DNA of 64,000 nucleotides, taken from Streptomyces paludis. GTDB lineage: Bacteria; Actinomycetota; Actinomycetes; Streptomycetales; Streptomycetaceae. Below the pieces are notes generated by a model. That model was not told the DNA's origin, ran no database searches, and saw only the letters and a program-made list of their open reading frames with translations. The translations under genes were made by a program, and so were the position numbers. The stretch is taken from contig NZ_CP031194.1 of NCBI RefSeq assembly GCF_003344965.1, positions 7,564,001-7,628,000 on the forward strand. Reading direction: 5' to 3'. The stretch's first letter is position 1. Every line of letters starts with the position of its first letter. Of this stretch, positions 35,585 to 56,315 are shown one piece after another.

Positions 35585-35589
35585 TCTTC

Positions 35590-38348: not shown

Positions 38349-38660
38349 CGGACGCGCTCTCCTTCGTAAGGGCGTTGGCCGACGTGCGTGCGCGGCACCG
38401 TGAAACGCGGAGATGGGGCAGTGGCAGGACAGGAAGAGGCGGAAAGCCGAATAAACAGCCGGTAATCCGTCCAGATCCGAGACGACGGTATCGGCCGCCG
38501 CATCCGGGGGACCCCGAGAAGCCGTAGACATTAACTCGATACGATGATCTTGCCCGGTGGGGGGTTTACCGGGCCGAACCGCGCTTCTACGATGGCCGGC
38601 CGGATGATCGGCGCGAACGGTACGGAGAGCGATCCCACGGAGGCGATCCCGAGGAAGCGG
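38349..38660. other. 312-bp gap between the megasynthase and encapsulin genes
   Basis: No convincing gene. It holds a 7-bp hairpin (38552-38574) close to the megasynthase stop and, nearer the shell gene, a locally AT-richer patch (about 38440-38460, minus-strand GTTTATTCGGC) that may include the encapsulin promoter. No clean -35/-10 pair could be fixed. Confidence 0.5.
38552..38574 (-). terminator. Possible terminator after the KS-CLF-AT-DH gene
   Basis: GCCCGGT (38552-38558) pairs perfectly with ACCGGGC (38568-38574) across a 9-nt loop, about 90 nt past the megasynthase stop on the minus strand. It would separate the lipid and encapsulin messages. Confidence 0.45.
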
Positions 38661-41600
38661 TCACCCGGGCCCGGGAGCGGCGTCGGAGACCACCCGCATC
38701 CCCAGGCCGCGCACCCGGTAGATGCACGTGTCGTCACCCCACAGCGTCGCGTCCCCGATCGCGTACGGGCCGCGCGCGTCCGTACCGGACTCGACGATGT
38801 CCATGTCCACCCGGATTAGCCGGTTGGCCGGGGTGATCTGGCCGCGGTACGTCCAGGATGTCTCGCGCCCGGGCAGCACCGGTTCGAAGCGGGGGTGCGG
38901 GACACCGTCGGCGGCGCCGCGTTCGAGCAGGTGGTACTGGAGCAGCTGGCACATCGCCTCCAGACCCAACGACCCCGGCTGCACCGGGTCCTGGAAGAAG
39001 TGGGCCCGGAAGAACCACTCGCCCGGCACCACGTCCTTCTCCGACCGCAGCCGGCCGAGCCCCGCCCGGCCCCCGTCCGGCCAGCAGCCGGTGATCCGGT
39101 CGAGCATCAGCAGCATCGGCCCCGGCAGCCGGGGCCGCCCGGCGCAGTACCGGGCGGGGCGCGCGGTCAGATCCACCGGCGGCCCGCACGGCTTGTCGAG
39201 CCGCGCCCGGTCCTCGGCCGGCACCGCGAGGCCCGGCTGCCGGTCGAAGGCGGACGGCGGGAAGTAGCCGAAGACCGTGGACAGTTCGAAGAGCGGCGCG
39301 CCGTCGGCCGTGCACCGCACCCGGAAGGACTCCACGATCATGTCCCCGCTGCGGGAGATCCGGGTCAGCACGGCATGGGTGCGGACCGTGCCCGTCGCCG
39401 GGGTGACCTCACCGCTGACCGTCCCCGTCCCGTCGAGGTTGCGGAACAGCAGATCCGTGCCGGTGGTCAGCGCGCTGCCCACGTACGACGCCAGCCAGCC
39501 GCAGGGTTGCAGCGCGATCTCCATGAGCACGGCGAACGGCATCGTACGGCCGCCGCTCTGCTCGAAGTACCAGGCCCGCGCGGGCACGTCGTACTCCGCG
39601 ACGGCCTCGGAGCCCTCCCGCATCCCGCCCTGCGGTCCGTCGACCGAGACGATCCGGCTCATGAAGTGGTACGGGGGCCCGGGCAGCCGCGCCACCCGGC
39701 GCGTACCGTCGAAGGGCTCGTACGCGGCGCCGAACGCCTCGCTCGGCCGGCCCCAGGCACACGCCAGCAACGAGGGGTAGCCGAAGGGGAGTCCGTCGGC
39801 CGCCGTCGCCACGGGCTTCTCCTCCCGGTGCCCCGCCAGCCCGCCGAGCAGCGCAAGCGGTACGGGCGTACCGTCGGCCCGTACGGTGGGCGGGCCCGAG
39901 CCCCGCCAGTGCGACAGCGGCCAGTCCGGTACGAGCCGCAGCGCCACGTCCCGGCCCAGGAACGCCTTCGCCCCGTCCACCGACCCCAGCACATCGGCGT
40001 GGAGCGTGGGCACCGGGCCGGCCGACACACCGCGGACGAACACCTCGTAGACGACCCGCCGTCCTGACGGAGTGGCCTGGCCCCGGCACATCGTGCGGCA
40101 GGGGTGGCCGTCGACCGGCTCGAAGCGCCAGCCGTCCCGGTCGACGGTGAAGCCCATGGCCGTCAGATAGAACGCCATCGCCTGGAGACCGCCCTGAAGC
40201 ATCAGGGTGCCCGGCATACAGGGGTCGTTCTTGAAGTGCCCCGAGAAGAACCAGTCGTCGGGGGAGAGCGGGGTCTCGGCCCGCAGATAGCCGCGGCCCC
40301 ACGGTCCGCCCGCCGGGTCGAACGCGGTCACCTCGTGGATCAGCCGCAGCCGGCCGCCGTCGAGCCCCGGCGAACGGACATGGGCCGCCGTCGCCTCCCA
40401 GCCGGGCCCGAAGCAGTCCGCCGGCCGGCCGTCGACCAGGGCCGACACCCGCTCCGCGCCGAAGCGCGTCAACGCGCAGCGTACGGCGGGCGGGTCGAGC
40501 GGCAGCTCAGCACCGGGCGGACGCTCGGCGGGATCCCACCGCACACCGCCACCGCCGGCCAGCTCACGCGGGGTGAAGAACCCGGCCTGGCCCTCGCGGA
40601 CGCTCAGCCGCAGCACACCGTCCACGAAGCAGTCGTAGTGGAAGAAGGCCAGCCGGACACCGTCGTGCTCCGCGTGGCCGTCGATATGGATCTCGTAGCG
40701 CAGGACGTCCCCCGCCCCCGGCGGTCCACCGTGGTACGTCACCTCGCAGCCGAGCAGCCGGTACGCGCGCTCGCCCCGGTTGAGGAGATCGGCGCCCAGC
40801 CAGCTGAGCAGGAGCAGATCCGCCTGGCCCGCCTCGATCAGCACCCCGGCCGGCACCCGGCCGGTGGCGTCCAGATACCAGCTGCCGGGCAGGACATCGG
40901 TCTCGGTCCAGATCGTCCCGTCGGTGCGTACGGACCCGGGAGCCGCGAGCGCGGCCGGTACGGCGTCGATACCGGTGATCCGGTCCGCGAACAGCATGGG
41001 CGGCTCCGGCATCCGGGTCTGCACCGCGTAGCCGTCCTGCTCGGCGAAGCGGGGACCGAACAGCGCGGAGATCTTCCCGGAGGCGAGGTATTCCAGCTGG
41101 GCGCGGTCGAACTTCGGCCCGGGTTTGGTGGGTTGATCGGGCACGGGTGCGGGCGTGGATGGGGTCGTGGATGCGGTCGTGGCCGTGCCGGGAGCCGTCA
41201 GCGCGGTGACGGCGAGGGCCGAGATCCGCAGGAACCGCTGGTGGGCCTCGGTGTGTACGGCCATGATCTCCCGGTGCAGCGCCGCGACCCGCAGCCCCTG
41301 CCGGACGATCACGCCACGGACCCCCGCCGCGGGCGCGGCGACGGCGGCCGGGGCGACAGCGGCCGGGGCGACGGCAGCCGGTGTGACGGCGGCCGGGGCC
41401 TCGGGGCGGCCGGTCCGAGGCCGCCACTCCGGCACCGGCGCCAGTTCGGGGGCCCGGGGCAGGGTGGTCACCACGTGCGGACCCACGGGCGGACCCATGT
41501 GCGGACCCATGTGCGGCTTCACCACCGGCTCCACCGCCGGTTCCACGGGGGACAGGCACGGCGTTGTGGGTACGGCGACGGTGACGGTGGGCCCCGGGCG

Positions 41601-44600
41601 CGGCACTTCGGTGGCGGCGTCCGCGAGCCGGGCGAACAGTTCGTCGGCGTGTACCGGCACCCCGGCGACGACGAGTTCGGCGACCGCGAGGCACAGCTGC
41701 CGCAGCCCGGTGTCGCCCGGGGCGTCCAGGGCGACGGCCACATGCTCCCGGTCCCCGAGCACCCGCTTGATCCAGCCGGTGCAGAGCTTGCGCGGCCCGT
41801 GCTCGACGAAGACCCGCACCCCGTCGGCCCAGGCCCGCTCGACGGTGGCCGCGAAGTCGATGGTGTTGAGGCCCTGCGCGGTGAGCGCCTCGGCGGCCCG
41901 TTCGGCCGTCGGCCGGTACGACTGGCCGGTGGCCCCGCTGTAGAACCGTACCCCCGGGACATCGACGGTGGGACGGTGGTGTGCCGTCCGCCAGGCCGCC
42001 TCGACCTCGGTCACTTCCGGTGCGTGGGCGGCGAGTTCGTAGTCCAGCTCGATCGCGCGGTCCGCGCCGATCCGGGCCACGGCGGCGGCGCACGCCCGGG
42101 ACTCGCCGCCGATGACGCAGACCCCGGGCGCGTTCACCGCCATCAGATGGACCGCGACCTCCCCCGCCAGCTCCGAACGGACCTCTTCCAGCGGCGCGTT
42201 GACGAGATAGGTGGCCCAGCGGGAGCCCTGGACACCCAGCCGCGCCCAGTGGCGCCTGACCGCCCGCAGTTCACCGGTGAGCTGCGTGGTGAACAGGCCG
42301 CTGTCCAGGGTCGCGTCATACAGTCCCGAGGCGTCCGGCCAGGCCCCCAGGGCGACCAGCGCGGCCGACTCGCCCGAGGAGTAGCCGATGGCGGCGTCCG
42401 GCCGCAGCCCGAGCACCTCCCGGGTGAACACGGTGTGGAACACGGCGAGTTCGGCGGCGTCCCAGATCTGACCCAGCACGCCCCGCTCCGTACTGGAGCG
42501 CAGCCGGGTGCCGATCGCCCTGTGCCCGGCCCGGACGGCCTCCCCGAGGGACGGCAGCGCGAGCATCAGCTCATGGCCCATGCCCGGGTACGCGGCCGAG
42601 CCGTTGGTGTAGACGAACGCGGTCTGACCCGTGACGGGCGTGTCCCGGTACAGCACATCCGCCGGACGGATCCCGCCGTCGGCCAGCCAGCGGCGGGCGG
42701 CCTCCTTGCGGCCCGGCAACGCGGCGTCGTCGTCGACCACGAGCGCCAGCCGGGCCGGCCCGGGACAGGAGCCGGCACCGGACCCCTGCCGCGTACCGGA
42801 CTGCGACTCCAGCGCCGCCAGTACCTCCGCGCGGTCGGCGCCGGAGAAGACATACAGGCGCGGAGCCCGTCCGCGCAGCCACGGCCGGGCGTCCCCCGCG
42901 CGCAGGAGGACGCTCGCGACGGGCCCCTCCATCGGTGTCACCGAGGCCCGCGCGGTGTGCGCGACGGCCCCGGCGTCCGCCGGTCCGCCCGTACGCGGCA
43001 CCGCGCGGTGCTGGAGCGCGAGCGCGGCGACCGCGACGGAGACCAGCCCGTACGCGGCGTGCGCGCGGCCGAAGGCCGACGCCGGGTCGAACACCGCGTC
43101 GGGACCGTCCCCGATGACCATGTCGGGCACGGCAGCGGTGGCGGTGGTTCCGGTGGTGCCGGTGGCGGTGGGTTCGTCGTCGAGAAGCGCGATGACGGTG
43201 TCACCGTCCCGGCGGGCGGTGTCGAGGGGCTTGAGGACCAGGACGACGGCGGCGTCCCCCGGTGCGCTCGTGTGCCCCAACTCCCGCAGCGCGGCCCGGT
43301 GGACCACCTCGTGCGACAGATCGGCGGCGCCGACGAGCGCGGCGTCCGCCTCTCCCGCCCGGACGGCCCGCGCCGCGATCTCCAGCGCCACCGGACCGGA
43401 CGCCTCCTCCGCCGACACCGCGAAGCTCGCGCCCGCCAGGTCGAGTTGGGTGCTGATCCGGTTCGCCGCCAGATTCGGCAGGCTGCCCACCACCCCCTCC
43501 GCGGTCATGGGCCCCACGAACGCGTCCCGGGCGGTGGCGGCGTCCGGCAGCCCGGCCGCGGGTCCGGCCTGCGCCAGCCAGTACGGCACCCGCCAGCGCG
43601 CCCCCGCCCTGGCCACCTCCGGGTCCACCCCCATCCCGATGACCACCATGGTCCGCTCCCGGGGCAGGGACACCGTCCGTACGGCCTCCCGGGCCGCCTC
43701 CAGCACCAGCAGCTGATGGCGTACGGTCCGCTCCAGGGCCAGCGGCGGAAAACACAGCTCCGGCAGCTCCACGGCGATCTCCCGGGCCCCGCCGCGCCGT
43801 TCACCGCCCAGCACCGCCCGGCGGAAGTCCTCGGTGCCGGTCCCGTCGCCGACCCGGGCGCCCAGGGCGACGATCGCCACCGGGGTACGGCCGCCCGGCA
43901 CACGGCCGCCCGGCACACGGCCGCCCGGCACACTCCGCACCGGGGCGGGGGAGCGCGGGGCCGACACCGGGCGCGCCGGGGAACGTACGCCGGACACCAC
44001 GGGGCCGTCGTCCGGCAGGTCCACGATCAGATGGGCGTTGGTCCCGCCGAATCCGAAGGCGCTCACCGCCGCCCTGCGCGGCCCCGGCCCCGCCCACGGC
44101 TCCGGTGCCGTCAGCACCCGTAACGGTGTGCCCGCCAGCGCGTCCAGCGGACGTTCGGCGCCGAGCGTCGCCGGGCGGATTCCCGTACGCAGCGCGCCGA
44201 GCACCTTCAGCAGCCCCGCCACCCCCGCCGAGGCCAGCAGATGCCCGACGTTCGACTTCGCCGAACCGATGGGCACATCGGCACTGGCCCCGAAGACCCG
44301 GGCCATGGCCCGCGCCTCCACCGCGTCCCCGACCGGTGTCCCCGTCGCATGGCACTCGACGAGCGACACACTCCCGGGCGCGACGCCCGCCGCGTCGTAC
44401 GCCAGCCGCATGGCCCGCACCTGGCCCTCCTCCGCCGGGCTGATCAGCCCGGCGCCGCGCCCGTCGTTGGACAGCCCGACACCGCGGATCACACCGAGCA
44501 CGGGCAGCCCGGCGGCCCGCGCCTCGGACAGCCGCGTCAGGGCGACGAACCCGGCGCCCTCGCCGTGCACCAGCCCGTCCGCGTCCCGGTGGAAGGGCCG

Positions 44601-45332
44601 GCTGCGTCCCGTACGGCTCGTCGCGGAGAGCCCGCAGAATCCCACGTGCAGATAGAGGGGATCGGCCCGGCTCACCGCTCCGGCCACCATCAGGTCCGCC
44701 GTGCCGTCGTGCAGCCGGTCGCACGCCAGCTTGACCGCGTACAGCGAGGAGGCACAGGCGGCGTCGAGGGACCACGCGCCCGCGCCGAGCCCGAGCGCCC
44801 GGGCCGCGAGCTGGGCGGGCAGTCCGGACGAGAAGCGGTTACGGGCGTCGGGCCGCACCTGGCGCTCGCCGGTCAGCAGGGCGTCCCGGACCGGCCGCCG
44901 CTGCGCGGAGAGCCAGACATGCTCGGCGAAGGAAGTCCCCAGAGGCGTGGGGTAGGACAGATTTCCCAGCACCAGCCCCGCGCGCGGCAGCGGCCCCTCG
45001 CGGCCCGCCTCCGCGAGGGCCTGGCGGACGCCGTACATGACCCAGTGGAAGAGCGGGTCCAGCGACAGGATCCGTTCCGGGGCGATCCGGAAGCCGCTCG
45101 GGTCGAAGACGGACGCGAAATCCCTTACGTAGCCGCCGATATCGGAGTAGGTACGGTCGAGGTGGTCGTCGACCGGGCCCATGGCCCACGAGCGCGGCAG
45201 CCGCCACCGGCCCTCGGGGACGGCCGACAGACTGCCGCGGCCCGCCGCGATGTTCTGCCAGAACGTGTCCGGATCGAGGGCGCCGGGCAGCACACAGCCC
45301 CGGCCGACGACGGCGATCGGTTCGTATTCCAT
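38661..45332 (-). CDS. PUFA-synthase-like multienzyme: KS-CLF-AT-DH-DH (PfaC/PfaB-like fusion)
   Basis: A 2223-residue protein. Residues about 5-435 are a ketosynthase (WSLDAACASSLYAVKL with the Cys, VECHATGTP and NVGHLLASAG for the two His). About 480-790 is a chain-length-factor-like domain, where SFAVSAEEASG has Glu in place of Cys. About 905-1245 is an acyltransferase with GYSSGE near 983, like the PfaB type. Four hotdog segments from about 1385 to 2210 follow, with FabA-like active sites GHFKNDPCMPG near 1697 and AHFFQDPVQPG near 2110. No carrier domain. It works with the next subunit, which has the ACP. Products of related streptomycete loci are mostly unproven. Confidence 0.88.
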   Translation of the reverse strand: MEYEPIAVVGRGCVLPGALDPDTFWQNIAAGRGSLSAVPEGRWRLPRSWAMGPVDDHLDRTYSDIGGYVRDFASVFDPSGFRIAPERILSLDPLFHWVMYGVRQALAEAGREGPLPRAGLVLGNLSYPTPLGTSFAEHVWLSAQRRPVRDALLTGERQVRPDARNRFSSGLPAQLAARALGLGAGAWSLDAACASSLYAVKLACDRLHDGTADLMVAGAVSRADPLYLHVGFCGLSATSRTGRSRPFHRDADGLVHGEGAGFVALTRLSEARAAGLPVLGVIRGVGLSNDGRGAGLISPAEEGQVRAMRLAYDAAGVAPGSVSLVECHATGTPVGDAVEARAMARVFGASADVPIGSAKSNVGHLLASAGVAGLLKVLGALRTGIRPATLGAERPLDALAGTPLRVLTAPEPWAGPGPRRAAVSAFGFGGTNAHLIVDLPDDGPVVSGVRSPARPVSAPRSPAPVRSVPGGRVPGGRVPGGRTPVAIVALGARVGDGTGTEDFRRAVLGGERRGGAREIAVELPELCFPPLALERTVRHQLLVLEAAREAVRTVSLPRERTMVVIGMGVDPEVARAGARWRVPYWLAQAGPAAGLPDAATARDAFVGPMTAEGVVGSLPNLAANRISTQLDLAGASFAVSAEEASGPVALEIAARAVRAGEADAALVGAADLSHEVVHRAALRELGHTSAPGDAAVVLVLKPLDTARRDGDTVIALLDDEPTATGTTGTTATAAVPDMVIGDGPDAVFDPASAFGRAHAAYGLVSVAVAALALQHRAVPRTGGPADAGAVAHTARASVTPMEGPVASVLLRAGDARPWLRGRAPRLYVFSGADRAEVLAALESQSGTRQGSGAGSCPGPARLALVVDDDAALPGRKEAARRWLADGGIRPADVLYRDTPVTGQTAFVYTNGSAAYPGMGHELMLALPSLGEAVRAGHRAIGTRLRSSTERGVLGQIWDAAELAVFHTVFTREVLGLRPDAAIGYSSGESAALVALGAWPDASGLYDATLDSGLFTTQLTGELRAVRRHWARLGVQGSRWATYLVNAPLEEVRSELAGEVAVHLMAVNAPGVCVIGGESRACAAAVARIGADRAIELDYELAAHAPEVTEVEAAWRTAHHRPTVDVPGVRFYSGATGQSYRPTAERAAEALTAQGLNTIDFAATVERAWADGVRVFVEHGPRKLCTGWIKRVLGDREHVAVALDAPGDTGLRQLCLAVAELVVAGVPVHADELFARLADAATEVPRPGPTVTVAVPTTPCLSPVEPAVEPVVKPHMGPHMGPPVGPHVVTTLPRAPELAPVPEWRPRTGRPEAPAAVTPAAVAPAAVAPAAVAAPAAGVRGVIVRQGLRVAALHREIMAVHTEAHQRFLRISALAVTALTAPGTATTASTTPSTPAPVPDQPTKPGPKFDRAQLEYLASGKISALFGPRFAEQDGYAVQTRMPEPPMLFADRITGIDAVPAALAAPGSVRTDGTIWTETDVLPGSWYLDATGRVPAGVLIEAGQADLLLLSWLGADLLNRGERAYRLLGCEVTYHGGPPGAGDVLRYEIHIDGHAEHDGVRLAFFHYDCFVDGVLRLSVREGQAGFFTPRELAGGGGVRWDPAERPPGAELPLDPPAVRCALTRFGAERVSALVDGRPADCFGPGWEATAAHVRSPGLDGGRLRLIHEVTAFDPAGGPWGRGYLRAETPLSPDDWFFSGHFKNDPCMPGTLMLQGGLQAMAFYLTAMGFTVDRDGWRFEPVDGHPCRTMCRGQATPSGRRVVYEVFVRGVSAGPVPTLHADVLGSVDGAKAFLGRDVALRLVPDWPLSHWRGSGPPTVRADGTPVPLALLGGLAGHREEKPVATAADGLPFGYPSLLACAWGRPSEAFGAAYEPFDGTRRVARLPGPPYHFMSRIVSVDGPQGGMREGSEAVAEYDVPARAWYFEQSGGRTMPFAVLMEIALQPCGWLASYVGSALTTGTDLLFRNLDGTGTVSGEVTPATGTVRTHAVLTRISRSGDMIVESFRVRCTADGAPLFELSTVFGYFPPSAFDRQPGLAVPAEDRARLDKPCGPPVDLTARPARYCAGRPRLPGPMLLMLDRITGCWPDGGRAGLGRLRSEKDVVPGEWFFRAHFFQDPVQPGSLGLEAMCQLLQYHLLERGAADGVPHPRFEPVLPGRETSWTYRGQITPANRLIRVDMDIVESGTDARGPYAIGDATLWGDDTCIYRVRGLGMRVVSDAAPGPG

Positions 45333-45350
45333 ACGTGTGGTCTCACTTGT

Positions 45351-48300
45351 CTAGGAGGGACGGCTGACGAGTTCCACGCCGAGCAGCTCCAGCCGGACCG
45401 CCCCGTCGGCGTCGATGAGCGCCGCGTCGCAGCGCGCTCCCGTGCTGTGTGTCTTCCGGCCCCGCACCACACACCGCACCGTGCCGTCCACCGGGCCGCG
45501 CCGGTGCACCCTGCACTCCGCGACGGCCATAGGTAGTGTCGCCGTACCGGCGGCGTTCCGCGCCCAGAGCAGGGCGAGTTGGAGCGCGCCGTCCACGGCG
45601 GCCGGGTCCAGCGGCCAGTGGTCCCCCGGCCAGCCCAGGGCACGCAGGCCCGCGACGGTGGCCTCGGCGCCGTGCGCGGAGAGCGCGTGCAGGGTGCGGA
45701 CGGCCTGGAACCGGGGTCCGTGGAAGAGGAGTTCGCCGTCGTAGATTCCGGCGCGGTCCAGCGGTTCTTCGCTGTCCGGGCCACCCGTACGGTACGGGCC
45801 GCCTGCACTGCCCGCGCCGTCCGTACCGTACGGGCCGTGCCAGGCGGCCGGATCGGGCGCCGTGCTTCCGGTGCCCAGGACGGCCCGGAAGTACGCCACA
45901 CCGTCCGCGCCCCGCAGCTCCGTCTCGATTTCGGCCTCCGGACCGGCCGCGCCCCGGCTGCCGTGCACCGTCAACCGGTGGCCCGCTCCGGTCAGTTCCG
46001 GCAGGGCGAACTTCTTGTACACCCGCAGATCGCGCAGCACGAGCGGTCCGGTACCGGCCCGCCAGGCGGTGGCCGCCCCGGCGAACCAGTTCAGGACCAT
46101 CGCCACGGGCAGTACGGGAACCCCGGCGAGCGTGTGGTCGGACAGATACGGCAGTGTGTCCGCCCGGACCAGGAGCTGCGCCGGGGGAGGATCACTGGCC
46201 GGGGACAGCGCCGCCGGATCGTCTCCCACCGCCAGGATGGCCCGCGCCTCGCCGGCCGCGCCGTCCAGTTCGGCGGTGAAGGCGGCGGCGCCCCGGTCCA
46301 GGGGGATGAGCGGCACTCCGGACCGGCCGAAGTGCGTGGCCAGGGCGGGTGTGACCATGCCGCCCCGCCACGGGCCCCAGGCGACACACCGCACCAGACA
46401 GCCGGGGCGGGCGGCCTGCTCGGCGGAGGCCACCTGGCCCAGGATCTCGTTGGCCATGGCGTAGTCGCTCTGGCCGGTGTTGCCGTACACGGCGGCCACC
46501 GAGGAGAACAGGCAGATCACGTCCAGCGGATCGTCCGCCGTCGCGGCCAGCAGCGCGCGCAGACCGTCCACCTTGGTGGACATCACCCGCTCGACCTGCG
46601 CGTCGGTCTTGTCGGCGATCAGCTTGTCGGCCAGGACGCCCGCACCGTGCACGATGCCGGTGACCGGGCCCCACGTCGCGCGCACCTCACGGAGGGCGGC
46701 CCCGAGGGCCTCGCCGTCACGTGCGTCGGCCCGGATGTACCGGACGAGGGAGCCGGCCGCCTCCAGAGCCGCCAGTGTGGCCCGTACCTCACGTGCTGCC
46801 AGGATCTCCCGGGCCCGAGCGGTGATCCGGGCGGCGATCGGGGCGGGCGAGGAGGCCGTCGAGTCTGTGGCGGATTTCTCGGCGGATTCGTTGGCCGATT
46901 CCTCGGCGGCGCGCTCCGCGAGCAGCCGGACGAGCGCCGGTTCGTCGGCGGCCGACGCCAACCCGTCGGGCTCGGGGACCAGCGCCGTCCTGCCGAGCAG
47001 TACGATCCGCGGACGGTGTGTCCTGGCCAGGTCCAGCAGCGCGGCGGCGGTGACCCCGCGAGCCCCTCCGGTGGCCACGATGACCGACGCGGAGGTGATC
47101 CGCCGCCTGGTGCCGGGCGTCACCGGCGCGGGCACCGCCCCGTGGACGACACGGGTGCCGTCCGCGCGGAGACCGGCCTCCGTGGCGGGGCCGCCCTCCA
47201 GCAGTTCCCCTACGATCGCCTCGGCGACCGCCTCGTCGTCCCGGCCGCCCCGCTCGCAGTCGACGGCCTTGACCGAGGCGCCCGGCCACTCCTTCGCCGC
47301 CGTCCTGACCAGACCGGCGACACCGCCCAGCCACGTGCGGCCGGCCGCGCGCCCGCCGAGCCCGAAGTCGCCCCCGGTGTCCTGCACGGTTACGAACAGC
47401 CCTTTTTTCCCGTGCACTTGGCCAGCCACCGAACGCGCCGCGCGGAACACCGACCGGTGCACCTCCCGCGCCCCGTCCGGCGTACCGTCCCCGGTCAACG
47501 CGCCGAGGTGGATGACACCACGAGCGCCCTCGGGCACCTCGGCGACGGCGGTGGCGTCCACACCGCGCTCCGCCAGCTTCCGGGCGACAAGGCCGGTGAG
47601 CCCACCGCCGTCGGGCCCCTCGCCGGTCACCAGGACCGGCCCGTCCAGCAGCCCGGCCATCGCGAGACCCACCGCCGGTGCCTCCACAGCGCGCGGCACC
47701 AGCCTGGTCAGCGCCGGGGCGTCGGTGACCTGTGGGGTCTTGGACGCCTCGGGCGGCTCGGGGACCTCGGTGGCGCTCCCTGTGTCGGGCACCTCCGGAT
47801 TGCTGCCCGTGGTGAGCGCCTCGACGATTTCGCGCAGTGTGCGGAGCTTGCCCAGCCGGCTGACATCCCCCGCCGCGACATCGCCCACCTGCCGCCGTAC
47901 GGCCGACAGGATCTCGACGCGCTTGATGGAGTCGACCCCGAGATCCGCCTCCAGCTCCATGTCCACACCCAGCATCTCGGTGGGATAGCCGGTGAGCCGG
48001 GCCACCACCGAGAGCAGCAGCTCCTCCAGCTCCGACGCCGACACGGGTGCGGCGGCAGCCGGTTCGGGCGCGGGTACGGGAACCTCCACGGCGGCCGGTG
48101 TCACGGGCGCCGGTGCCCGACGCGGTGCCGGAGGGCGGGGCAGTGTCAGCGGTGCCGTAGCGGCCGGGGGAGCCGTGACAGGGGCGGCCGGTACCGGCGC
48201 GGCCTCGATCACCCGGTCGGTGCCGCCCTGATCCGTGATGCCGTGCAGTCCCTGCGGTGCGGGTGTTTCCTGCCCTCCGCGCACCCCGAGCATCGCGGTC

Positions 48301-51300
48301 AGGGTCGTCTCGGTCATCCGCAGAAAGGCGATATGACTGTCCGTCAGCATGCGCTGACAGGCGGCATGGGCTTCCGCCGTCTGCCGCTGAACGCTCTCGA
48401 CCGCGGTGTACCAGTCGGCGTCGTGGACGGGTTCCGGGGCGTCGGCGGCTGCCGTCTCGTACATCGGGGGCTCCGGTGGTGTGTGGTGGGTAGTGGGGAG
48501 GGGGACGGGCGGTGTGGGTACGGGCGCGGCCACGGGTACGGGAACAGCCGCGGGAACGGCCGCGGGTGTTCCGGTGGCTCCGGCGAGGGGCGGGTACGGC
48601 TGGCCGTAGTTGGCTCCGCTGATCGCCACCGTCATCCGGGGCCCGCGCTCCTTCGCCTGCGCGGACTCAGCCTCCGGCGCCGTCCCGGGCGACGCGTACG
48701 GTGCCCACAGGGGGTCGAGATCGAGGGGCACACCGCGTACGGCGAGTTCACCGAGGGCGGTGTGGAGTGTGCTGATCCCGGACCGGCCCGGCCGGTCCAG
48801 CGGGACGGCCGCGTGCTCGCGGTCGCCGAGGATCTGCCCGACCAGGCCGGACAGCGCCGCGCCCGGGCCGACCTCGACAAAGGTCCGCACCCCCGCCGCG
48901 TACATCGCCTCGATCTGGTCCTGGAAGAGCACGGGCGAGACGAGGTGGCCGGCGATCCGGCGGCGTACCTCGTCCGGCGAGGAGGGGTACGGGGCCGCGT
49001 CCGCGTTGCCGTAGACCTCGATCCGTGGCTCCGTGAACGGGACCGTGCGCAGGAACGCGGCGAGCGGCTCGCAGGCCGGGGCGACCAGCGGACTGTGGAA
49101 GGCGGTCGAGGTGGTCAGCCGGTGGGTGGCGACCCGCTCCGCCGCGAACACCCTCTCGGCCCGCTCGACCGCCTCCGTCGTCCCTGAAAGCACCGTCTGA
49201 AGAGGGGAGTTGTGGTTGGCCGTCCAGAGTCCGCCGGCTCCGGGGCCGGGGCCGCCGGGTCCGTCGAGTTCACCGGGTCTGCCGCGCTCCCCGAGTCCGC
49301 CACCTGCCAGGACCGCCGCCACCCGCGCGCGGTCCGTCGCCACGGCGAGCATCGCGCCCGGCGCGGCGGCGGCGTCCCGCATCAGCTCACCGCGTCTGCG
49401 GGCCAGGGCGACCAGCGACCCGGCGTCCAGGGCGCCCGCGCAGTGCAGTGCCACCAGCTCACCGAAGCTGTGGCCCGCCACACAGTCCGGCCGCAGCCCC
49501 AGGGACCGTACGACCTCCAGCAGCGCGAGCGCGTGCACCGCGAGCGCGGGCTGCGCCCACTCGGTCGCGGCCAGGGACGTCTGCCGGTCCGCGCGCTCCT
49601 CGTCGGTGAATGAGGGCGGCGGGAACACCACCCGGTGCAGCGGCAGCCCGTCGAAGCCGGTGCCGCCCAGCTCGTCCCACACACTCTGGGCGGCCGGTGA
49701 CAGCATCGCGAGACCGGCGCCCATCCCGACGTACTGGGATCCCTGGCCCGGGAAGAGGAAGCCGATACGGCCGGGCGCGGGCGCCCCGGAGGCGTACCGG
49801 ATCCCCGTCGGTACGGAGAACGCCGCGTCGGGTCTCCGCCGGATCAGCGCGAGCGCCCGCGTGTGTTTCTCCCGCAGCTCCTCGATGTCGGTGGCGACGA
49901 TCGCCAGCCGTACCGGGGCGGTGGCGGCGAACGCGCGCTGGCTCTCCCGTGCGAGCGCGGCCAGCGAACGGCCGTCGCCGGTGTCCGGTGTCACCAGATC
50001 GGCCGGCGAGGCCCCGCTGAACAGGACCAGTTCGCTCGGCGCGCAGCGATGACGCGCCGCCACCCGGCCCAGCGCTCCCCGGGCCGACGCGTCCCGGCCT
50101 GACGGCCCCGCGGGTACGTACTCCTCCAGTGTGACGTGGAAGTTGCTGCCCCCGAAGCCGAAGCTCGACACCGACGCCCGGCGCGGGTGACCGGCGGGCC
50201 GCACCCAGGGCCGGGCCTCGGTGTTGACGTAGAAGGGACCGTCGGGTGAGGCCGCCGCCGGGTTGGGCCGGCCGACCTTGATGGTCGGCGGCAGCACCTT
50301 GTGGTGCAGTGCCATGACCGCCTTGAGCAGCCCCGCCGCGCCCGCCGCGCACTTGGTGTGGCCGATCTGCGACTTGACCGAGCCGATCGCGCACCACTGC
50401 CCGTCCGTACGCCCCGACGCCCCGAACACCTCGTTCAGCGCGGCGAGTTCGGCGGTGTCCCCGGCCGGGGTGCCGGTGCCGTGCGCCTCGACCAGCTCCA
50501 CGGTCTCGGGACCGTACCCCGCCTCCTCGTAGGCGCGCCGCAGCGCCCGCGCCTGGCCGTCGGGCAGCGGCGCGTAGATCCCTGGACTCCGGCCGTCCGA
50601 CGAGGAGCCGATGCCCCGGATCACCGCGTGGACCCGGTCGCCGTCCCGCTCCGCGTCGGACAGCCGCTTCAGCGCGTACATGACGACCGCCTCGCCGAGC
50701 ATCGTGCCGTCCGCCGCGTCCGACAGCGGCCGGCAGTCACCACTGCGGGACAGCGCCGGGGTCTTGGAGAAGGACAGGAACATACCGATGCCGTTGCCGG
50801 TGTCCACCCCGCCACTGAGTACCAGATCGGCCCGGCCGAGGGCCAGTTCACCGACCGCCGTGGACAGCGCGGCCAGGGAGCTGGCGCAGGCGGCGTCGGT
50901 GGTGTGATTCGTACCGTGCAGATCGAAGCGGTGGGCGATCCGGCCCGCCACCACATTGCTGAGAAGCCCGGGAAACGTCGACTCCCGCCACGGTGTGTAG
51001 TGCGCCGCGATACGGTCGCACACGGCCCGCGCCTCCGCCTCGCCGATCCCGCTCTCCCGCAACGCCTTGAGCCACACGGGCCGTTCGGTGCGCCCGTACA
51101 TGTGCGGAAGCAGCTCCAGCGCGGACACCCCGAGGACGACGCCGATCCGGTCCCGGTCCATGCCCGGCAGACCACCGGCGTCGGTCAGCACCTGGTCGGC
51201 CACCATCAGCGCGAGCAGTTGCGCGGTGTCGGTGGAGGGCAGGCTGGTGGGCGGCACACCGTACGCCATCGGGTCGAAGCCGACGTCCGGCAGGAACGCG

Positions 51301-51539
51301 CCCCGGCGGGCGTATGTCTTGTCGGGGGCGGCCGGGTCCGGATCGTAGTGGTCCGCCACCAGCCAGCGGGAGGCCGGCACCTCGGTCATCATGTCCCGGC
51401 CGCCCGTCACGATCCGCCAGTAACCGGCCGCGTCCGTCGCGCCGGGCACAAGGGCGCCGACGCCGACCACGGCGACGGGCACCTGACGGGAGGCGGGAGC
51501 GGCGGGAGCGGCTGAAGCGGGAGCGGCGGGGGCGGTCAC
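45351..51539 (-). CDS. PUFA-synthase-like multienzyme: KS-AT-ACP-KR-DH (PfaA-like)
   Basis: A 2062-residue protein. The ketosynthase is at about 17-440 (DAACASSLAAL near 217, VEAHGTGTPAGD, KSQIGHTKCAAG). A malonyl-type acyltransferase with FPGQGSQYVGMG and GHSFGE near 690 follows. There is one carrier domain with LGVDSIKRVE near 1201, then a ketoreductase with VIVATGGARGVTA near 1486 and a C-terminal polyketide-type dehydratase (LSDHTLAGVPVLP near 1803, VDGALQLA). Typical PfaA has four to nine tandem carriers; only one is seen here. The GTG at 51539 has GAGGAGAG 5 bp upstream. Stop is 18 bp from the next subunit. Confidence 0.9.
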   Translation of the reverse strand: MTAPAAPASAAPAAPASRQVPVAVVGVGALVPGATDAAGYWRIVTGGRDMMTEVPASRWLVADHYDPDPAAPDKTYARRGAFLPDVGFDPMAYGVPPTSLPSTDTAQLLALMVADQVLTDAGGLPGMDRDRIGVVLGVSALELLPHMYGRTERPVWLKALRESGIGEAEARAVCDRIAAHYTPWRESTFPGLLSNVVAGRIAHRFDLHGTNHTTDAACASSLAALSTAVGELALGRADLVLSGGVDTGNGIGMFLSFSKTPALSRSGDCRPLSDAADGTMLGEAVVMYALKRLSDAERDGDRVHAVIRGIGSSSDGRSPGIYAPLPDGQARALRRAYEEAGYGPETVELVEAHGTGTPAGDTAELAALNEVFGASGRTDGQWCAIGSVKSQIGHTKCAAGAAGLLKAVMALHHKVLPPTIKVGRPNPAAASPDGPFYVNTEARPWVRPAGHPRRASVSSFGFGGSNFHVTLEEYVPAGPSGRDASARGALGRVAARHRCAPSELVLFSGASPADLVTPDTGDGRSLAALARESQRAFAATAPVRLAIVATDIEELREKHTRALALIRRRPDAAFSVPTGIRYASGAPAPGRIGFLFPGQGSQYVGMGAGLAMLSPAAQSVWDELGGTGFDGLPLHRVVFPPPSFTDEERADRQTSLAATEWAQPALAVHALALLEVVRSLGLRPDCVAGHSFGELVALHCAGALDAGSLVALARRRGELMRDAAAAPGAMLAVATDRARVAAVLAGGGLGERGRPGELDGPGGPGPGAGGLWTANHNSPLQTVLSGTTEAVERAERVFAAERVATHRLTTSTAFHSPLVAPACEPLAAFLRTVPFTEPRIEVYGNADAAPYPSSPDEVRRRIAGHLVSPVLFQDQIEAMYAAGVRTFVEVGPGAALSGLVGQILGDREHAAVPLDRPGRSGISTLHTALGELAVRGVPLDLDPLWAPYASPGTAPEAESAQAKERGPRMTVAISGANYGQPYPPLAGATGTPAAVPAAVPVPVAAPVPTPPVPLPTTHHTPPEPPMYETAAADAPEPVHDADWYTAVESVQRQTAEAHAACQRMLTDSHIAFLRMTETTLTAMLGVRGGQETPAPQGLHGITDQGGTDRVIEAAPVPAAPVTAPPAATAPLTLPRPPAPRRAPAPVTPAAVEVPVPAPEPAAAAPVSASELEELLLSVVARLTGYPTEMLGVDMELEADLGVDSIKRVEILSAVRRQVGDVAAGDVSRLGKLRTLREIVEALTTGSNPEVPDTGSATEVPEPPEASKTPQVTDAPALTRLVPRAVEAPAVGLAMAGLLDGPVLVTGEGPDGGGLTGLVARKLAERGVDATAVAEVPEGARGVIHLGALTGDGTPDGAREVHRSVFRAARSVAGQVHGKKGLFVTVQDTGGDFGLGGRAAGRTWLGGVAGLVRTAAKEWPGASVKAVDCERGGRDDEAVAEAIVGELLEGGPATEAGLRADGTRVVHGAVPAPVTPGTRRRITSASVIVATGGARGVTAAALLDLARTHRPRIVLLGRTALVPEPDGLASAADEPALVRLLAERAAEESANESAEKSATDSTASSPAPIAARITARAREILAAREVRATLAALEAAGSLVRYIRADARDGEALGAALREVRATWGPVTGIVHGAGVLADKLIADKTDAQVERVMSTKVDGLRALLAATADDPLDVICLFSSVAAVYGNTGQSDYAMANEILGQVASAEQAARPGCLVRCVAWGPWRGGMVTPALATHFGRSGVPLIPLDRGAAAFTAELDGAAGEARAILAVGDDPAALSPASDPPPAQLLVRADTLPYLSDHTLAGVPVLPVAMVLNWFAGAATAWRAGTGPLVLRDLRVYKKFALPELTGAGHRLTVHGSRGAAGPEAEIETELRGADGVAYFRAVLGTGSTAPDPAAWHGPYGTDGAGSAGGPYRTGGPDSEEPLDRAGIYDGELLFHGPRFQAVRTLHALSAHGAEATVAGLRALGWPGDHWPLDPAAVDGALQLALLWARNAAGTATLPMAVAECRVHRRGPVDGTVRCVVRGRKTHSTGARCDAALIDADGAVRLELLGVELVSRPS

Positions 51540-51597
51540 GGTCTCTCCTCGGGGTCGGACGGCGGGCACCGCGGCGTCTCCGGGCCACCGGCGCCGC

Positions 51598-53268
51598 TCA
51601 TGCCAGCGCGCACGGGGTGCAGGCGAACGATTCGGGCGGCAACGGCACTCCATAGGTGCGCAGTTGATGGGCGCGGGTGAGCACCGCCGCGCCTTCGAGC
51701 AGGTTGAGCGCGATCTGTACCACGGACCGGTTCGCGGGCTCGGCCAGGAAGGTGCCCGCGGTCCACCGGTTGAACGCGCCCATCGCGGGACCGCACCAGA
51801 TCTGGTAGTCGGTACGCCGATCCGCTTCGCCGGTGATCGCCCACCGGCTCGAACTGCCCAGATACCAACGGAAGACCAGCGCCATCCGGTGCTTGGGATC
51901 GGACGCGGCCCGCGCGATCTCGGTGGGATCGCGCCCCTCCCAGAACGCGACCGTGCGCCGCCATACCTCGTCGAACGGGGCGCGCAGCACCTCCCGTTCG
52001 ATCGGGGCGCGCACGGCGGGCGGGATCTCCTCCAGCGAGCCGTACGCCCGGTACGCCGCGAGGAGCCGGCCGGCCCGTCGCGCGAACATCGTCCCCCTGG
52101 ACAGCACTTGCAGCTGGACGCCCAGCTCGAACATGTCCGCCGCCGGCGCCATGGCCACATCGGCGATGTCCGCCTCGCAGAGCATCGCCTTGGCCTCGTC
52201 GGACAGCCCCGCCTCGGTGGCCGTCTGGTTCACCGACCCGACGACCACGTAGGACGCGCCGAGGGCGAAGGCGGCGGCCACCGCGTCCGGTGTGCCCAGT
52301 CCGCCCGCCGCGCCGACCCCGACCGCCCCGTCGTAGCCGTACCGCCGGCACAGTGTGTCGCGCAGCGCGGCGATGGCGGGCAGCAGCACTGACAGCGGGC
52401 GGTTGTCGGTGTGCCCTCCGCTGTCGGCCTCGACGGTGAGATCCTCGGCCACCGGCACCCGGGCCGCGAGTTCCGCCTCCTCGCGCGTCAACTCCCCCTG
52501 CGCGACAAGCCGGTCCAGCAGCGCGGCCGGCGCGGGGGAGAGAAACCGCGCGGCCACCTCCGGCCGGGAGACCTTGGCGAGGATCCGGGTCCGCCGTACG
52601 ATCCCGCCGTCCGCGCCCCGGCGCAGCCCCCGGGCCGCGCACAGCACCACCGCCGGGGTCAGCTCCATGAACGCCGACGCCGAGATCCGGGGCACCTCGC
52701 GGCCCACCAGCAGCTGGGCGACGCGGAACTCCAGCTCGGGTTCGGCCGGTGAATGGATCAGGTTCACCCCCCAGTTCGTGTGGGAGCGCAGCTCGTCGGC
52801 GAGTGTGTGCACGGCTCGCTCCACCTCGGCGTACGCCAGACCACCGGCGCCGAAGAACCCGAGCATCTCGGCGCGCGCCATCGCGGACACCATCCGGGTG
52901 GTCGCGATGCCGTTCGCCATCTCGCCCGCGACATAGGGGAATCGAACTCCGTGCGCCTCGCAGAAGGTGCGCCCGCCGAGCCACTCCGGGTACAGCGGCG
53001 GCAGCGTACCGAGCACCGGGCCGCCCGGCACGGGGCCGGTCGCGAGCCCCAGCTCACGGCCGTCGGGGCCGCTGACGACATGGACGGCTTCCCGGACGAT
53101 CCGGGCGCGGGCGGCGATCCCCTCGGGATCGAAGACCGGCGGGGACACGGCGGGTGGGCCGGGAGCGGCGAGCACGGACACGGAGGGCTCCAGCGGAAGA
53201 GGCGGTGCCGGGAGAGGCGGTCTCACGGCCACTCGCCCGGATTGTCTGACAGATAACTGATGGACCAT
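51598..53268 (-). CDS. PfaD-like FMN enoyl reductase
   Basis: A 556-residue protein with the nitronate-monooxygenase-like TIM barrel of trans-acting enoyl reductases: GVGAAGGLGTPDAVAAAFALGA (FMN phosphate site, near residue 320), VVVGSVNQTATEAGLS, and the C-terminal PfaD-specific part WYLGSSSRWAITGEADRRTDYQIWCGPAMGAFN. It reduces selected double bonds during chain extension. The ATG shares its first base with the stop of the upstream reductase gene (TGATG), so it relies on translational coupling; no separate ribosome site is visible. A TTG three bases earlier is not preferred. Confidence 0.9.
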   Translation of the reverse strand: MVHQLSVRQSGRVAVRPPLPAPPLPLEPSVSVLAAPGPPAVSPPVFDPEGIAARARIVREAVHVVSGPDGRELGLATGPVPGGPVLGTLPPLYPEWLGGRTFCEAHGVRFPYVAGEMANGIATTRMVSAMARAEMLGFFGAGGLAYAEVERAVHTLADELRSHTNWGVNLIHSPAEPELEFRVAQLLVGREVPRISASAFMELTPAVVLCAARGLRRGADGGIVRRTRILAKVSRPEVAARFLSPAPAALLDRLVAQGELTREEAELAARVPVAEDLTVEADSGGHTDNRPLSVLLPAIAALRDTLCRRYGYDGAVGVGAAGGLGTPDAVAAAFALGASYVVVGSVNQTATEAGLSDEAKAMLCEADIADVAMAPAADMFELGVQLQVLSRGTMFARRAGRLLAAYRAYGSLEEIPPAVRAPIEREVLRAPFDEVWRRTVAFWEGRDPTEIARAASDPKHRMALVFRWYLGSSSRWAITGEADRRTDYQIWCGPAMGAFNRWTAGTFLAEPANRSVVQIALNLLEGAAVLTRAHQLRTYGVPLPPESFACTPCALA

Positions 53269-54419
53269 CAAGATTGCTGTTTAGAGATGGAGTTGACCGC
53301 CGGTGAGATCGAGGAACCGGCCGGTACGGGGTCCCCCACCGCCAGTCCGGAGCACAGATAGCCGAGGTCCACCCGGTCGGAGGCCGCCGAAGGCCCGAGC
53401 AGGGTTCTGACCCGGGTGTCGTCGAAGCGCCGCCGGTGGGCGAGATAGGCCGTCAGCCCCGGATAGAAATCCAGCAGGGATTCCAGCGCCGACGGGTCGT
53501 CCGGCTCCGCCGCGACCAGCTCGATGGAGACCGGCACCAGCCGTTCCAGCAGGGTCACGACCGTCGGCACGGGCACATCGCGGTCATGGACGACGTGGTA
53601 CGTGTCGACCCCGCCCGAGGGCGTCCGCCCGGCGAGGCGCACCATGACCTCGGCCGCGTGCTCCACCTGTACCAGGTTCAGCCGGCCGTGCCGGTGCCCC
53701 ACCAGCCGGACCCGGGGGCGGCCCTCTGCGCCGGGGCCCCCGGCCGCCCGGGCGGTGTGCCGCGCGTCGCGCATGATCCGCTCGACGACCTGGAGCGGAT
53801 GCGGGGGCAGCTCCGGGTGCGGCGGCAGATCCGTGACCAGGATGCTCGGCCGCAGCACCACGACCGGCCGGGCGTGCTCCCGGGACCAGTCGTGGATCAG
53901 CTTCTCCGCCTCGTACTTGGAGTGTTCGTACGCGTTCTCGAAGCCGTACGCGTCGTCCAACTCGTCCTCGTACGCCACACCCTCACGCCGCCCACCGGCC
54001 ACGAAGGCCGTACTCACATGGTGGACCAAGGGCCGCCCCCGCCCGGCGGCGGCCAACTCCAGTACGTGCCGGGTCCCTTCCACGTTGGTCCGGCGCAACT
54101 CGGGCAGGTCTCCCTCCAGGTTGATACTGCCCGCGCTGTGCCAGATGGCGTCCAGACCGTCGGCCAGCTCCTGGAAGGCGCGCCCCGGCAGCCCCAGCCG
54201 GGGCCGCTCCAGCTCGGTCTCCACCACCCGCAGCCGGTCGGCGAGCGGAGCGGTGAACGCCTCGGGCGCGCCGGTCAGTTCGAAGTACCGGGTGATGCGG
54301 CGCAGCGCGTCCCCCGAGCCCGCGTGGACCAGGACCGTCACCGACCGGTGCGTGGCGAGCAGACGACGTAACAGGCGCAGCCCGAGGAATCCGGTGGCGC
54401 CGGTGAGCGCGACATGCAC
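53268..54419 (-). CDS. Free-standing thioester-reductase-like SDR protein
   Basis: A 383-residue extended short-chain dehydrogenase. GATGFLG at the N-terminus binds NADPH, YEHSK near residue 158 is the YxxxK catalytic pair, and TNVEGTRHVLELA plus DAIWHSAGSINLEG are usual in thioester reductase domains that release carrier-bound acyl chains as aldehyde or alcohol. The GTG at 54419 is chosen since GGAGG lies 7 bp before it; the ATG two codons earlier is only 1 bp from that site. First gene of the synthase operon, divergent from the wax-ester synthase. Confidence 0.8.
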   Translation of the reverse strand: MHVALTGATGFLGLRLLRRLLATHRSVTVLVHAGSGDALRRITRYFELTGAPEAFTAPLADRLRVVETELERPRLGLPGRAFQELADGLDAIWHSAGSINLEGDLPELRRTNVEGTRHVLELAAAGRGRPLVHHVSTAFVAGGRREGVAYEDELDDAYGFENAYEHSKYEAEKLIHDWSREHARPVVVLRPSILVTDLPPHPELPPHPLQVVERIMRDARHTARAAGGPGAEGRPRVRLVGHRHGRLNLVQVEHAAEVMVRLAGRTPSGGVDTYHVVHDRDVPVPTVVTLLERLVPVSIELVAAEPDDPSALESLLDFYPGLTAYLAHRRRFDDTRVRTLLGPSAASDRVDLGYLCSGLAVGDPVPAGSSISPAVNSISKQQS

Positions 54420-54971
54420 GACCATGCCTCCAAGAACGTCGGAAGGGACGGGATCCGCGACCGCGTGGTTGACGAGGCCGGATCGTCGTCGGTGCGGAGC
54501 TGCCGGGGCATCGCGGCAACGCGGGACGCGGGCGGCGCCGGTGGTGTGTGCGGCCGGCCCGCGGAGGTCACTCAAGAAGCTCTCAGGACCTCCCCCGGGG
54601 CCGGTGACCGCTGACGCACGGCACACAGTGTCAGAAGGCGGGCGGCGGCGGGGCTCCGAATCCACCCACTCACCTGAACGGAGTACCCGCACCGCGGATC
54701 CGGCGCGTGCCGGACGGCCCTGACGGAGCCTCCGTCGCAGGTCAGACGGGTCGCCGGTACGGACGGGACGCACGTGGCCCCTGGGGTACGGGCCGCCCGG
54801 CCGTGTCCCCCTTTCGGGTGGTTCCCCGGGCACCGCCCGGTGCCGGGACCCGGGGGGAGCGACCCTGGTCCCACCGCCCGCCACCGGCCCGCCCGTTCGG
54901 CCGTCCGCCTTTCCGCACGCCTTTCCGCACGCCCATCCGTCCGTCCGTCGGCACGAACCTGGAGATCCCTG
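54420..54971. other. 552-bp divergent control region (reductase / wax-ester synthase)
   Basis: No gene is supported. It must carry promoters for both directions. The only repeats noticed are a 12-bp tandem GCCTTTCCGCAC (54907-54930) followed by short CCGT iterations just before the wax-ester synthase ribosome site. No clear promoter boxes were found by eye. Confidence 0.5.
54427..54431 (-). promoter_or_regulatory. Ribosome binding site that fixes the reductase start
   Basis: GGAGG on the minus strand is 7 nt from the GTG at 54419 but only 1 nt from the in-frame ATG at 54425, so the GTG is preferred. Confidence 0.6.
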
Positions 54972-56315
54972 TTGCCCGAGTCCGTTCCGCCCGTTCCCCC
55001 GCCCCGGCACCCCGCCCACGCGCTCGACCGCGCGTTCCTCGGCATGGAACGCCGCCACCCCGACGCCCGCTGGGACGCCGGCGGCGTCGCGTATCTGAGC
55101 GGTCCGCCCCCGAGCCTGCCGGACCTCCGTGCGTATGTGGCGTTCCGGCTGCCCCAACTGCCCTTGCAGACGAGCCGGATCGAGGGCGGCCCGCGACGGC
55201 CCTGGTGGCGGCCGGACGCGGACTTCGCCGTCGACCGGCATGTGCACGAGGTGGTCGCGGCCGGACCGGGGGAGGGGGAGTGGGACACGGCCCTGCACAC
55301 CGCGCTCAACGCGCCGTTCCCGTCCGGCACTTATTGGGGCGTCTGGCTGCTTCACGGCCACGCGCCCGACCGGTACGCGGTGTGTTACCGCTTCCACCAC
55401 GCCTGCCAGGACGGTGCCGCCGCCGCGATGACGTTCCGGGCGATGCTGGGAGGCGGAGAGCCCTCGGCCCGCCCGGTGCCGGGGAAGGGCCGGCTGACCG
55501 GTCTGCCCCGGCGGGTGGGCACGGCAGTCGGACTGGCCGCGCGGTTCGCGTCCGGCACCTTCGTCGCCCGTGGCGCGCGTCCGGCCGTTCCCTTCGTTCC
55601 CACGGGCGAGAGACGGCTGTGGCGCGGCCGGGTACCGGCGGCGGACCTCCGACGGATCGGTTCGGCCCACGGCGGTTCGGCCCACGATGTCCATCTGGCG
55701 GCGCTGGCCGGGGCGTTGGCGGCCTGGTCGGCGCGGTCCGGCGTACCGCTGCCCCGTGTGACGGCGCTCGTACCCGTCGACGCGCGGCGTTCCGACGAGG
55801 ATCAGACCTGGGGCAACCGCTGCTTTGCCCTCCCGGTGGAGCTGCCCGTACGGACGGACCCGAAGGGCACGGACGCGTCCCGGAACGCGCGGGGCGCGCG
55901 AGGCGGTCAGGGCGGCGAAGCAGCCCCTTGGCGGCTGGACCGTGTCATGGCGCGGACCCGGAAGCTACGGGGCGAGACCTGGCGGCAGGCTCTACAGGAC
56001 CTGGTGCGGTTCATGCCCGGCCGCCCGACCGAGTGGTATCTGCGCCGGGTGCTCTCCCCGCGCGTCGCCGATGTCATGGCCACCTCCATGCCTCTCGCGG
56101 AGAAGGGCGGCCTGGGGGAGAGCCGGGTGACGGGGACCGCTCTGCTCCCCCTGCTCGTGCCCGGACACCTCTTCGGGGTGGGCCTCTCCTTTTTCGACAC
56201 CTGGGCCGAGGTCTCCTTCGTGGCCGACCGCGCCCTTCCCCTCGGGGAGTCGCTGCCGGAGCTGTGGGAGCGTGCCGTGGCCGAACTGGAGGAGTCCGCC
56301 GCGCCGCCCGAGTGA
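54972..56315 (+). CDS. Wax-ester synthase / diacylglycerol acyltransferase (WS/DGAT)
   Basis: A 447-residue acyltransferase of the bacterial WS/DGAT family. FHHACQDGAAAAM near residue 143 holds the HHxxxDG catalytic motif, LDRAFLGMERRHPDA sits at the N-terminus, and GNRCFALPVELP near 280 and FGVGLSFFDTWAEVSFV near the C-terminus are usual positions of conserved segments. The TTG at 54972 is preceded by GGAGA at 6 bp; the longer frame from 54774 is Arg/Pro-rich and not typical. It would join an acyl-CoA to the alcohol made by the divergent synthase/reductase set, giving a wax-like ester; triacylglycerol formation is the alternative. Confidence 0.82.
   Translation: MPESVPPVPPPRHPAHALDRAFLGMERRHPDARWDAGGVAYLSGPPPSLPDLRAYVAFRLPQLPLQTSRIEGGPRRPWWRPDADFAVDRHVHEVVAAGPGEGEWDTALHTALNAPFPSGTYWGVWLLHGHAPDRYAVCYRFHHACQDGAAAAMTFRAMLGGGEPSARPVPGKGRLTGLPRRVGTAVGLAARFASGTFVARGARPAVPFVPTGERRLWRGRVPAADLRRIGSAHGGSAHDVHLAALAGALAAWSARSGVPLPRVTALVPVDARRSDEDQTWGNRCFALPVELPVRTDPKGTDASRNARGARGGQGGEAAPWRLDRVMARTRKLRGETWRQALQDLVRFMPGRPTEWYLRRVLSPRVADVMATSMPLAEKGGLGESRVTGTALLPLLVPGHLFGVGLSFFDTWAEVSFVADRALPLGESLPELWERAVAELEESAAPPE

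Follow-up and report, generated by a model that had tools for sequence, protein, structure and literature searches.

The genome of Streptomyces paludis, a single contig of 8.45 Mb, encodes a polyunsaturated fatty acid (PUFA)-type synthase within a 64,000-nt stretch (positions 7,564,001–7,628,000; hereafter “the window”). Two further genes adjoin the synthase: a stand-alone short-chain dehydrogenase/reductase (SDR) that resembles thioester reductases, and a divergent gene for a wax ester synthase/diacylglycerol acyltransferase (WS/DGAT)-like O-acyltransferase, here called WS. The five-gene unit is conserved within its streptomycete clade and very likely constitutes one pathway. The best reading of that pathway, to which we assign a probability of roughly 0.55, is reductive release of the chain followed by ester formation. 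Under this model, an iterative synthase assembled from PfaA-, PfaBC-, and PfaD-like proteins would build a long, probably partly unsaturated chain on a single acyl carrier protein (ACP), the SDR would release the chain as an aldehyde or alcohol, and the dedicated WS would esterify the alcohol to give a neutral, wax-like ester. The ester partner may be an ordinary acyl-CoA or another chain, released from the synthase by the PfaB-type acyltransferase (AT). If so, clusters of a type that has long carried the label of a fish-oil-type fatty acid may in fact produce a wax-like ester.

The linkage of the five genes was examined in 246 congeneric genomes, with PfaD and WS as queries. PfaD matches at E ≤ 1e-30 occur in 63 genomes, and a close form of PfaD (73–100% identity, with the next match at 66%) in 11. 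An orthologue of WS (58–100% identity) is found in exactly those 11 genomes and was not found in the remaining 235; among the matches listed, non-orthologous WS proteins reach at most 41% identity. The SDR lies directly upstream of PfaD in all 11 cluster genomes, and the whole block, i.e., WS divergent from SDR-PfaD-PfaA-PfaBC, is complete in each of ten genomes read (nine of the 11, plus G593 from a class-wide search). WS and PfaD fall on different contigs in G116 and G147, whose assemblies are fragmented, and at two loci (L028 and G593) the WS orthologue is joined by an adjacent second WS/DGAT. Pairwise protein distances correlate with r of 0.965–0.985 for seven of the ten protein pairs; as there was no housekeeping-gene yardstick, this correlation speaks for joint inheritance and not for function.

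All three synthase proteins resemble PUFA synthase subunits. P0002 passes the PfaA model (TIGR02813, 1142 bits vs a cut-off of 1010) and P0003 passes the PfaD model (TIGR02814, 666 vs 449 bits). Family scans of P0002 give a ketosynthase (KS), an AT, one PP-binding domain, a ketoreductase (KR), and a polyketide synthase (PKS)-type dehydratase (DH). P0001 has a ketosynthase, an AT-like stretch whose PfaB-family match is below cut-off, and two FabA-like stretches; its KS and chain length factor (CLF) part is best matched by the solved protein ORF10 (6riw), over residues 4–686. From motifs read by eye, we take both KS cysteines, both AT serines, one ACP serine, and the KR Ser/Tyr to be present; presumably, the CLF stretch has no cysteine and the FabA-like part keeps its histidine in two of four hot-dog units. 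The PfaB-type AT has its Ser and His. Since KR, DH, and enoyl reductase are all present, the “hydroxylated” chain offered as one option in an earlier note on this DNA is unsupported. A single ACP motif is present in the window, as it is in all 12 Streptomyces loci with an SDR from a scan for PfaD. Canonical synthases of eicosapentaenoic acid (EPA) and docosahexaenoic acid carry tandem ACPs in PfaA, and the window protein differs from them in this respect. The difference weighs against an ordinary PUFA product, although a single ACP is also possible in PfaD loci without an SDR.

The step that would free the chain depends on what the SDR is. The protein carries an NAD_binding_4 domain with T-Y-K catalytic residues, and all three (T139, Y166, and K170) are invariant across 29 aligned sequences. 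It scores 139–142 bits against the thioester-reductase profile TIGR01746, below the curated cut-off of 213 bits; the corresponding scores are 139 bits for thioester reductase, 52 for HpnA, and 22 for GalE. In structure comparisons, the order of matches likewise favors thioester reductases over sugar epimerases. Profile and fold place the SDR nearer to thioester reductases than to epimerases, at a score below the curated cut-off. A grouping with sugar epimerases had been named in the earlier note as an outcome that would refute the proposed pathway; profile scores and structure order weigh against an epimerase reading, and the trees are not decisive. A 21-row tree unites the SDRs and R domains (97/95 support); in a 26-row tree the SDR forms its own clade (100/98), and that grouping is left open. 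An approximately unbiased test, which alone does not settle the matter, does not reject placing the SDRs with epimerases (p 0.298). The terminal R domains of MxaA, a Streptomyces PKS thioreductase, and a carboxylic acid reductase have the fold and catalytic residues in common with the SDR, which differs from them in being a separate gene and its own clade.

WS exceeds the Pfam cut-off for WS_DGAT_cat (41.9 vs 23.6 bits) and falls below the NCBIfam cut-off for acyl_WS_DGAT (117 vs 310 bits). By profile, sequence, and fold, it is nearest to wax synthases, and it has the fold and catalytic residues in common with the Marinobacter and Acinetobacter WS/DGATs. His119, Asp123, and Gly124 (P0132 numbering) are invariant in 39 aligned sequences; the full HHxxxDG motif is present in the window protein, with the first His replaced in many orthologues. 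The enzyme family leaves room for a different product. WS could put the synthase chain onto diacylglycerol, giving a PUFA-type triacylglycerol, with the SDR making a separate minor aldehyde, alcohol, or signal. Actinomycete WS/DGATs are often bifunctional, and WS is the sole PF03007 match found in the genome, such that any WS/DGAT-dependent triacylglycerol would need it. We nevertheless consider triacylglycerol an unlikely product, because the WS orthologue occurs, in the genomes searched, only with this reductase-bearing cluster, and because several WS paralogues adjoin SDRs or polyprenyl-type genes (see below). Somewhat less probable is a lipid conjugate rather than a wax, in which an acyltransferase of the PapA5/condensation type esterifies a polar or aromatic partner with the SDR-derived aldehyde or alcohol; while the SDR would act as in the preferred model, the best matches of WS are wax synthases by both sequence and fold, and the conserved block includes no gene for a polar partner.

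The synthase itself resembles a described type. Shulse and Allen (2011; PMC3098273) defined a type L secondary lipid synthase with S. coelicolor as a member and, in the passages concerned, an unknown product; PUFA production is there said not to have been demonstrated in S. coelicolor. Type L is characterized by a fused pfaBC, a 5′ pfaD, pfaA, and streptomycete members. The window has all of these: PfaA and PfaD families, a 5′ pfaD, and a fused pfaBC with KS, CLF, AT, and two DHs. The printed domain order in PMC3098273 (KS-CLF-DH2-AT) differs from that of the window (KS-CLF-AT-DH-DH). The main text of that paper does not mention “wax”, and its sole use of “thioester” concerns the ACP; the SDR and WS as parts of a type L-like unit are added here. 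The earlier note knew of no such lipid class from streptomycetes; the synthase type, with its product unknown, was already described in PMC3098273. The label “eicosapentaenoic acid” is repeated for the S. coelicolor cluster in the relevant parts of PMC5932044, PMC6414726, PMC7324645, and PMC2374992, the last of which states that transcription of the cluster (SCO0124-29) reaches its maximum at 60 h, together with sporulation, in the parent strain and not in the relA mutant. We infer that SCO0123–0127 encode WS, SDR, PfaD, PfaA, and PfaBC, orthologous to the window cluster. Among open PMC papers, we recognized none that assigns the SDR and WS to the cluster and no match for SCO0123.

The least probable alternative that we weighed is that the cluster makes free or phospholipid-bound PUFA (“EPA”) released by the PfaB-type AT, with the SDR in a tailoring role and WS a bystander: PfaA and PfaD matches above cut-off and the intact Ser and His of the AT fit it, and PfaB is the terminal acyltransferase of marine PUFA synthases in the part of PMC12895367 that treats it, which leaves a second release route open, but the restriction of the WS orthologue to cluster genomes, the single ACP, and the undemonstrated PUFA production noted above all speak against it. 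The conserved reductase and ester synthase point to a concrete product class and a possible exit route for the chain. If the wax-ester reading is true, sporulating streptomycetes make a neutral lipid of which we found no description in open PMC papers.

Two other systems combine similar genes. The myxobacterial pfa1-pfa2-pfa3 PUFA synthases have the order enoyl reductase, KS-AT-ACP-KR-DH, KS-CLF-AT-DH-DH, carry tandem ACPs, and end in an AGPAT domain. The gene order of the window is the same; it differs in having one ACP, the SDR, and WS, and Pfam and NCBIfam scans gave no AGPAT family match in the window proteins. The heterocyst glycolipid (hgl) islands of cyanobacteria, in the description given in part of PMC11804610, hold PUFA-related synthase genes together with a thioester reductase and an ABC transporter. 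Compared by this published description rather than by sequence, they resemble the window in pairing a PUFA-related synthase with a thioester reductase or, in the window, a thioester-reductase-like SDR, and they have a glycosyltransferase where the window has WS/DGAT; the hgl product is an envelope lipid of a specialized cell. By analogy, hgl islands are the best functional counterpart of the window cluster. Peptide-polyketide hybrids are another fate of such chains (excerpts of PMC13291983). If the preferred reading is correct, ester formation joins phospholipid transfer, glycosylation, and peptide-polyketide conjugation as a form of end-processing for PUFA-type synthases.

Outside the clade, the association is looser, and several observations weigh against reductive release and esterification as a general pairing. 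The PfaD scan kept 80 named genome loci as the best of 577 confirmed, several of them truncated; among these 80, the SDR is present in 16 and the orthologous WS in 10. In a 96-row PfaD tree, 28 rows have an SDR, 58 have none, and 10 were not judged, such that the SDR is missing from 58 of 86 judged rows; the sample was partly picked for the SDR and includes four identical or nearly identical row pairs (three with an SDR), meaning that 28 vs 58 is not a frequency. The SDR state needs three changes on this tree: the gene is found in one Streptomyces clade and one Frankia-type clade, as well as in the unresolved rows of G133 and Actinophytocola. In two Streptomyces genomes with lower-identity PfaD loci (G060 and G227), the 40 kb read contain no SDR and no WS, and Frankia-type loci have the SDR with no WS in the regions read; nor was a WS found in the region read for G133. 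An S. lividans SDR homologue is 74% identical. The expected conservation of SDR and WS beside the synthase is therefore borne out in the streptomycete clade and not in PfaD loci at large. The lipid-pathway interpretation of the earlier note is thus partly supported, gaining from clade linkage and from the profile and fold of the SDR while losing in generality and in the hydroxylated chain. Two loci bear on function. In Streptomyces sp. NRRL WC-3549 (L011), a different WS/DGAT (27% identity) precedes the SDR in the same orientation; in Actinophytocola (L044), the genes for SDR, a WS/DGAT (29% identity), and PfaD follow one another. That this position can be taken by a different WS speaks for function rather than mere inheritance.

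Genes near WS give hints about destination. Of the ten loci read, eight encode a protein of 173 aa that is apparently secreted (family F5), seven a presumed ABC membrane protein, six an ABC ATPase, and five the product of a fourth gene; the last is a flavin monooxygenase in L001, a label assigned from that locus and from a blast match in G116. None of these four flanking genes is in the window. F5 (e.g., L006:3323-3844, minus strand) has a signal-like N-terminus by eye and no Pfam or NCBIfam match. It is found in 13 of the 246 genomes, i.e., 10 of the 11 cluster genomes (not that of the window) and three of the 235 others; in G195 it lies ~130 kb from the block. A presumed permease without family match (F6) occurs in 59 of the 246, mostly without the cluster. 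These distributions led us to reject F5 and F6 as core members and to keep them as accessory. Because of the secreted-protein (8/10) and presumed exporter (7/10) genes, the ester may go to the surface, and a role as a spore or aerial-hypha lipid is plausible given that transcription of the S. coelicolor “EPA” cluster peaks at sporulation (passages of PMC2374992).

Paralogues of WS have suggestive neighborhoods of their own. We surveyed 26 of 31 non-orthologous matches (E < 1e-20), in 25 chosen, non-random regions; those omitted are in G001, G245 (the second match), G033, G133, and G014. In L159–L163, distant WS/DGATs have the same membrane-protein/ATPase pair next to them, together with synthases of the polyprenyl, squalene/phytoene, or undecaprenyl type; these regions were picked for the F6 pair and supplied the polyprenyl queries, such that their polyprenyl matches are not a count. 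Of 20 further regions, 12 have an SDR-like gene, six a KS, 17 one or the other, and none a polyprenyl gene; L175, L183 (a 5-kb contig), and L189 have none of the three. Twenty hand-picked control regions around weak WS matches, 28–31% identical to WS, also have none. The SDR-like genes of ten of the 12 regions seem to belong to a single orthologous operon. This recurring operon (L174, L178, L181, L182, L184–L188, and L191) combines an NAD_binding_4-type SDR and a WS/DGAT with a class-III aminotransferase, a polyketide cyclase, a flavin reductase, and an FAD oxidoreductase, all by domains read in L186. L173 has an aromatic amino acid lyase, KS, ACP, SDR (43%), WS, and an MMPL transporter. The SDR, KS, or polyprenyl-type genes in these paralogue neighborhoods hint at special lipid alcohols as the substrates of this WS branch. 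A broader proposal is possible, if doubtful: streptomycetes may own a modular “lipid-alcohol ester” system, in which a WS/DGAT branch, often with an ABC exporter and secreted partner, plugs into different alcohol-forming machines (a PUFA-type synthase with a stand-alone thioester reductase, KS-ACP with the same reductase type, or polyprenyl/squalene-type synthases) to make sporulation-tied surface waxes of polyunsaturated or isoprenoid alcohols. The S. coelicolor “EPA” cluster would be one such system; the theme of polyprenyl synthase, WS, and exporter rests on few loci.

The layout given in the earlier note, with synthase genes on one strand behind the SDR and WS divergent, is confirmed with small coordinate changes (Table 1). 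The minus-strand genes run from SDR through PfaD and PfaA-like to PfaBC-like and are tightly spaced, with the SDR stop codon overlapping the ATG of PfaD. Each of the five genes is an open reading frame supported by coding-like base composition or by family matches. The PfaA-like gene probably starts near 51539, since extending its frame to 52160 would take it into PfaD. In the divergent region, the best-conserved blocks across 19 aligned loci, scored with no shuffled control, are near 54802–54821, 54667–54686, and 54625–54644 (coordinates converted by hand; L010 and G195, both among the 19, are apparently one genome).

Table 1. Features of the five-gene unit, in window coordinates
Feature	Position	Strand	Remarks
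WS/DGAT-like O-acyltransferase	54984..56315	+	~443 aa, start uncertain
Divergent intergenic region	54426..54983	.	558 bp
Stand-alone thioester-reductase-like SDR	53268..54425	-	385 aa, TGATGFLG cofactor motif, T139-Y166-K170
PfaD-type enoyl reductase (P0003)	51598..53268	-	556 aa
PfaA-like KS-AT-ACP(single)-KR-DH (P0002)	45351..51539	-	~2062 aa, GTG start inferred
PfaBC-like KS-CLF-AT(PfaB type)-FabA-like DH-DH (P0001)	38661..45332	-	2223 aa

On the same strand, 130 bp downstream of the synthase, lies a 2-methylisoborneol (MIB)-type operon (34667–38531, minus strand) encoding a geranyl diphosphate 2-C-methyltransferase, an encapsulin-cargo terpene cyclase, and a family 2B encapsulin shell. We rejected it as part of the pathway because it is absent from the regions of all nine other genomes. 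A MIB-type operon also lies within 10 kb of a synthase at L016:2283-6080, outside the SDR-bearing clade. On the other side, the WS gene is adjoined by a gene for an NPP1-family protein with a signal-like N-terminus (56387–57142, minus strand; PF05630, 211 bits); NPP1, GMC, and NCS1 genes were discarded as block members, as they were not found beside the block in the nine other genomes' regions. A paralogue (30–35%) of a LacI-type regulator recurs further out in G053 and G195. Lastly, genome G000 has a second PfaD-type gene (C1:7377094-7378527), which shares 54% identity with the first, lies ~240 kb away from it, and is part of an open frame of 1138 aa.

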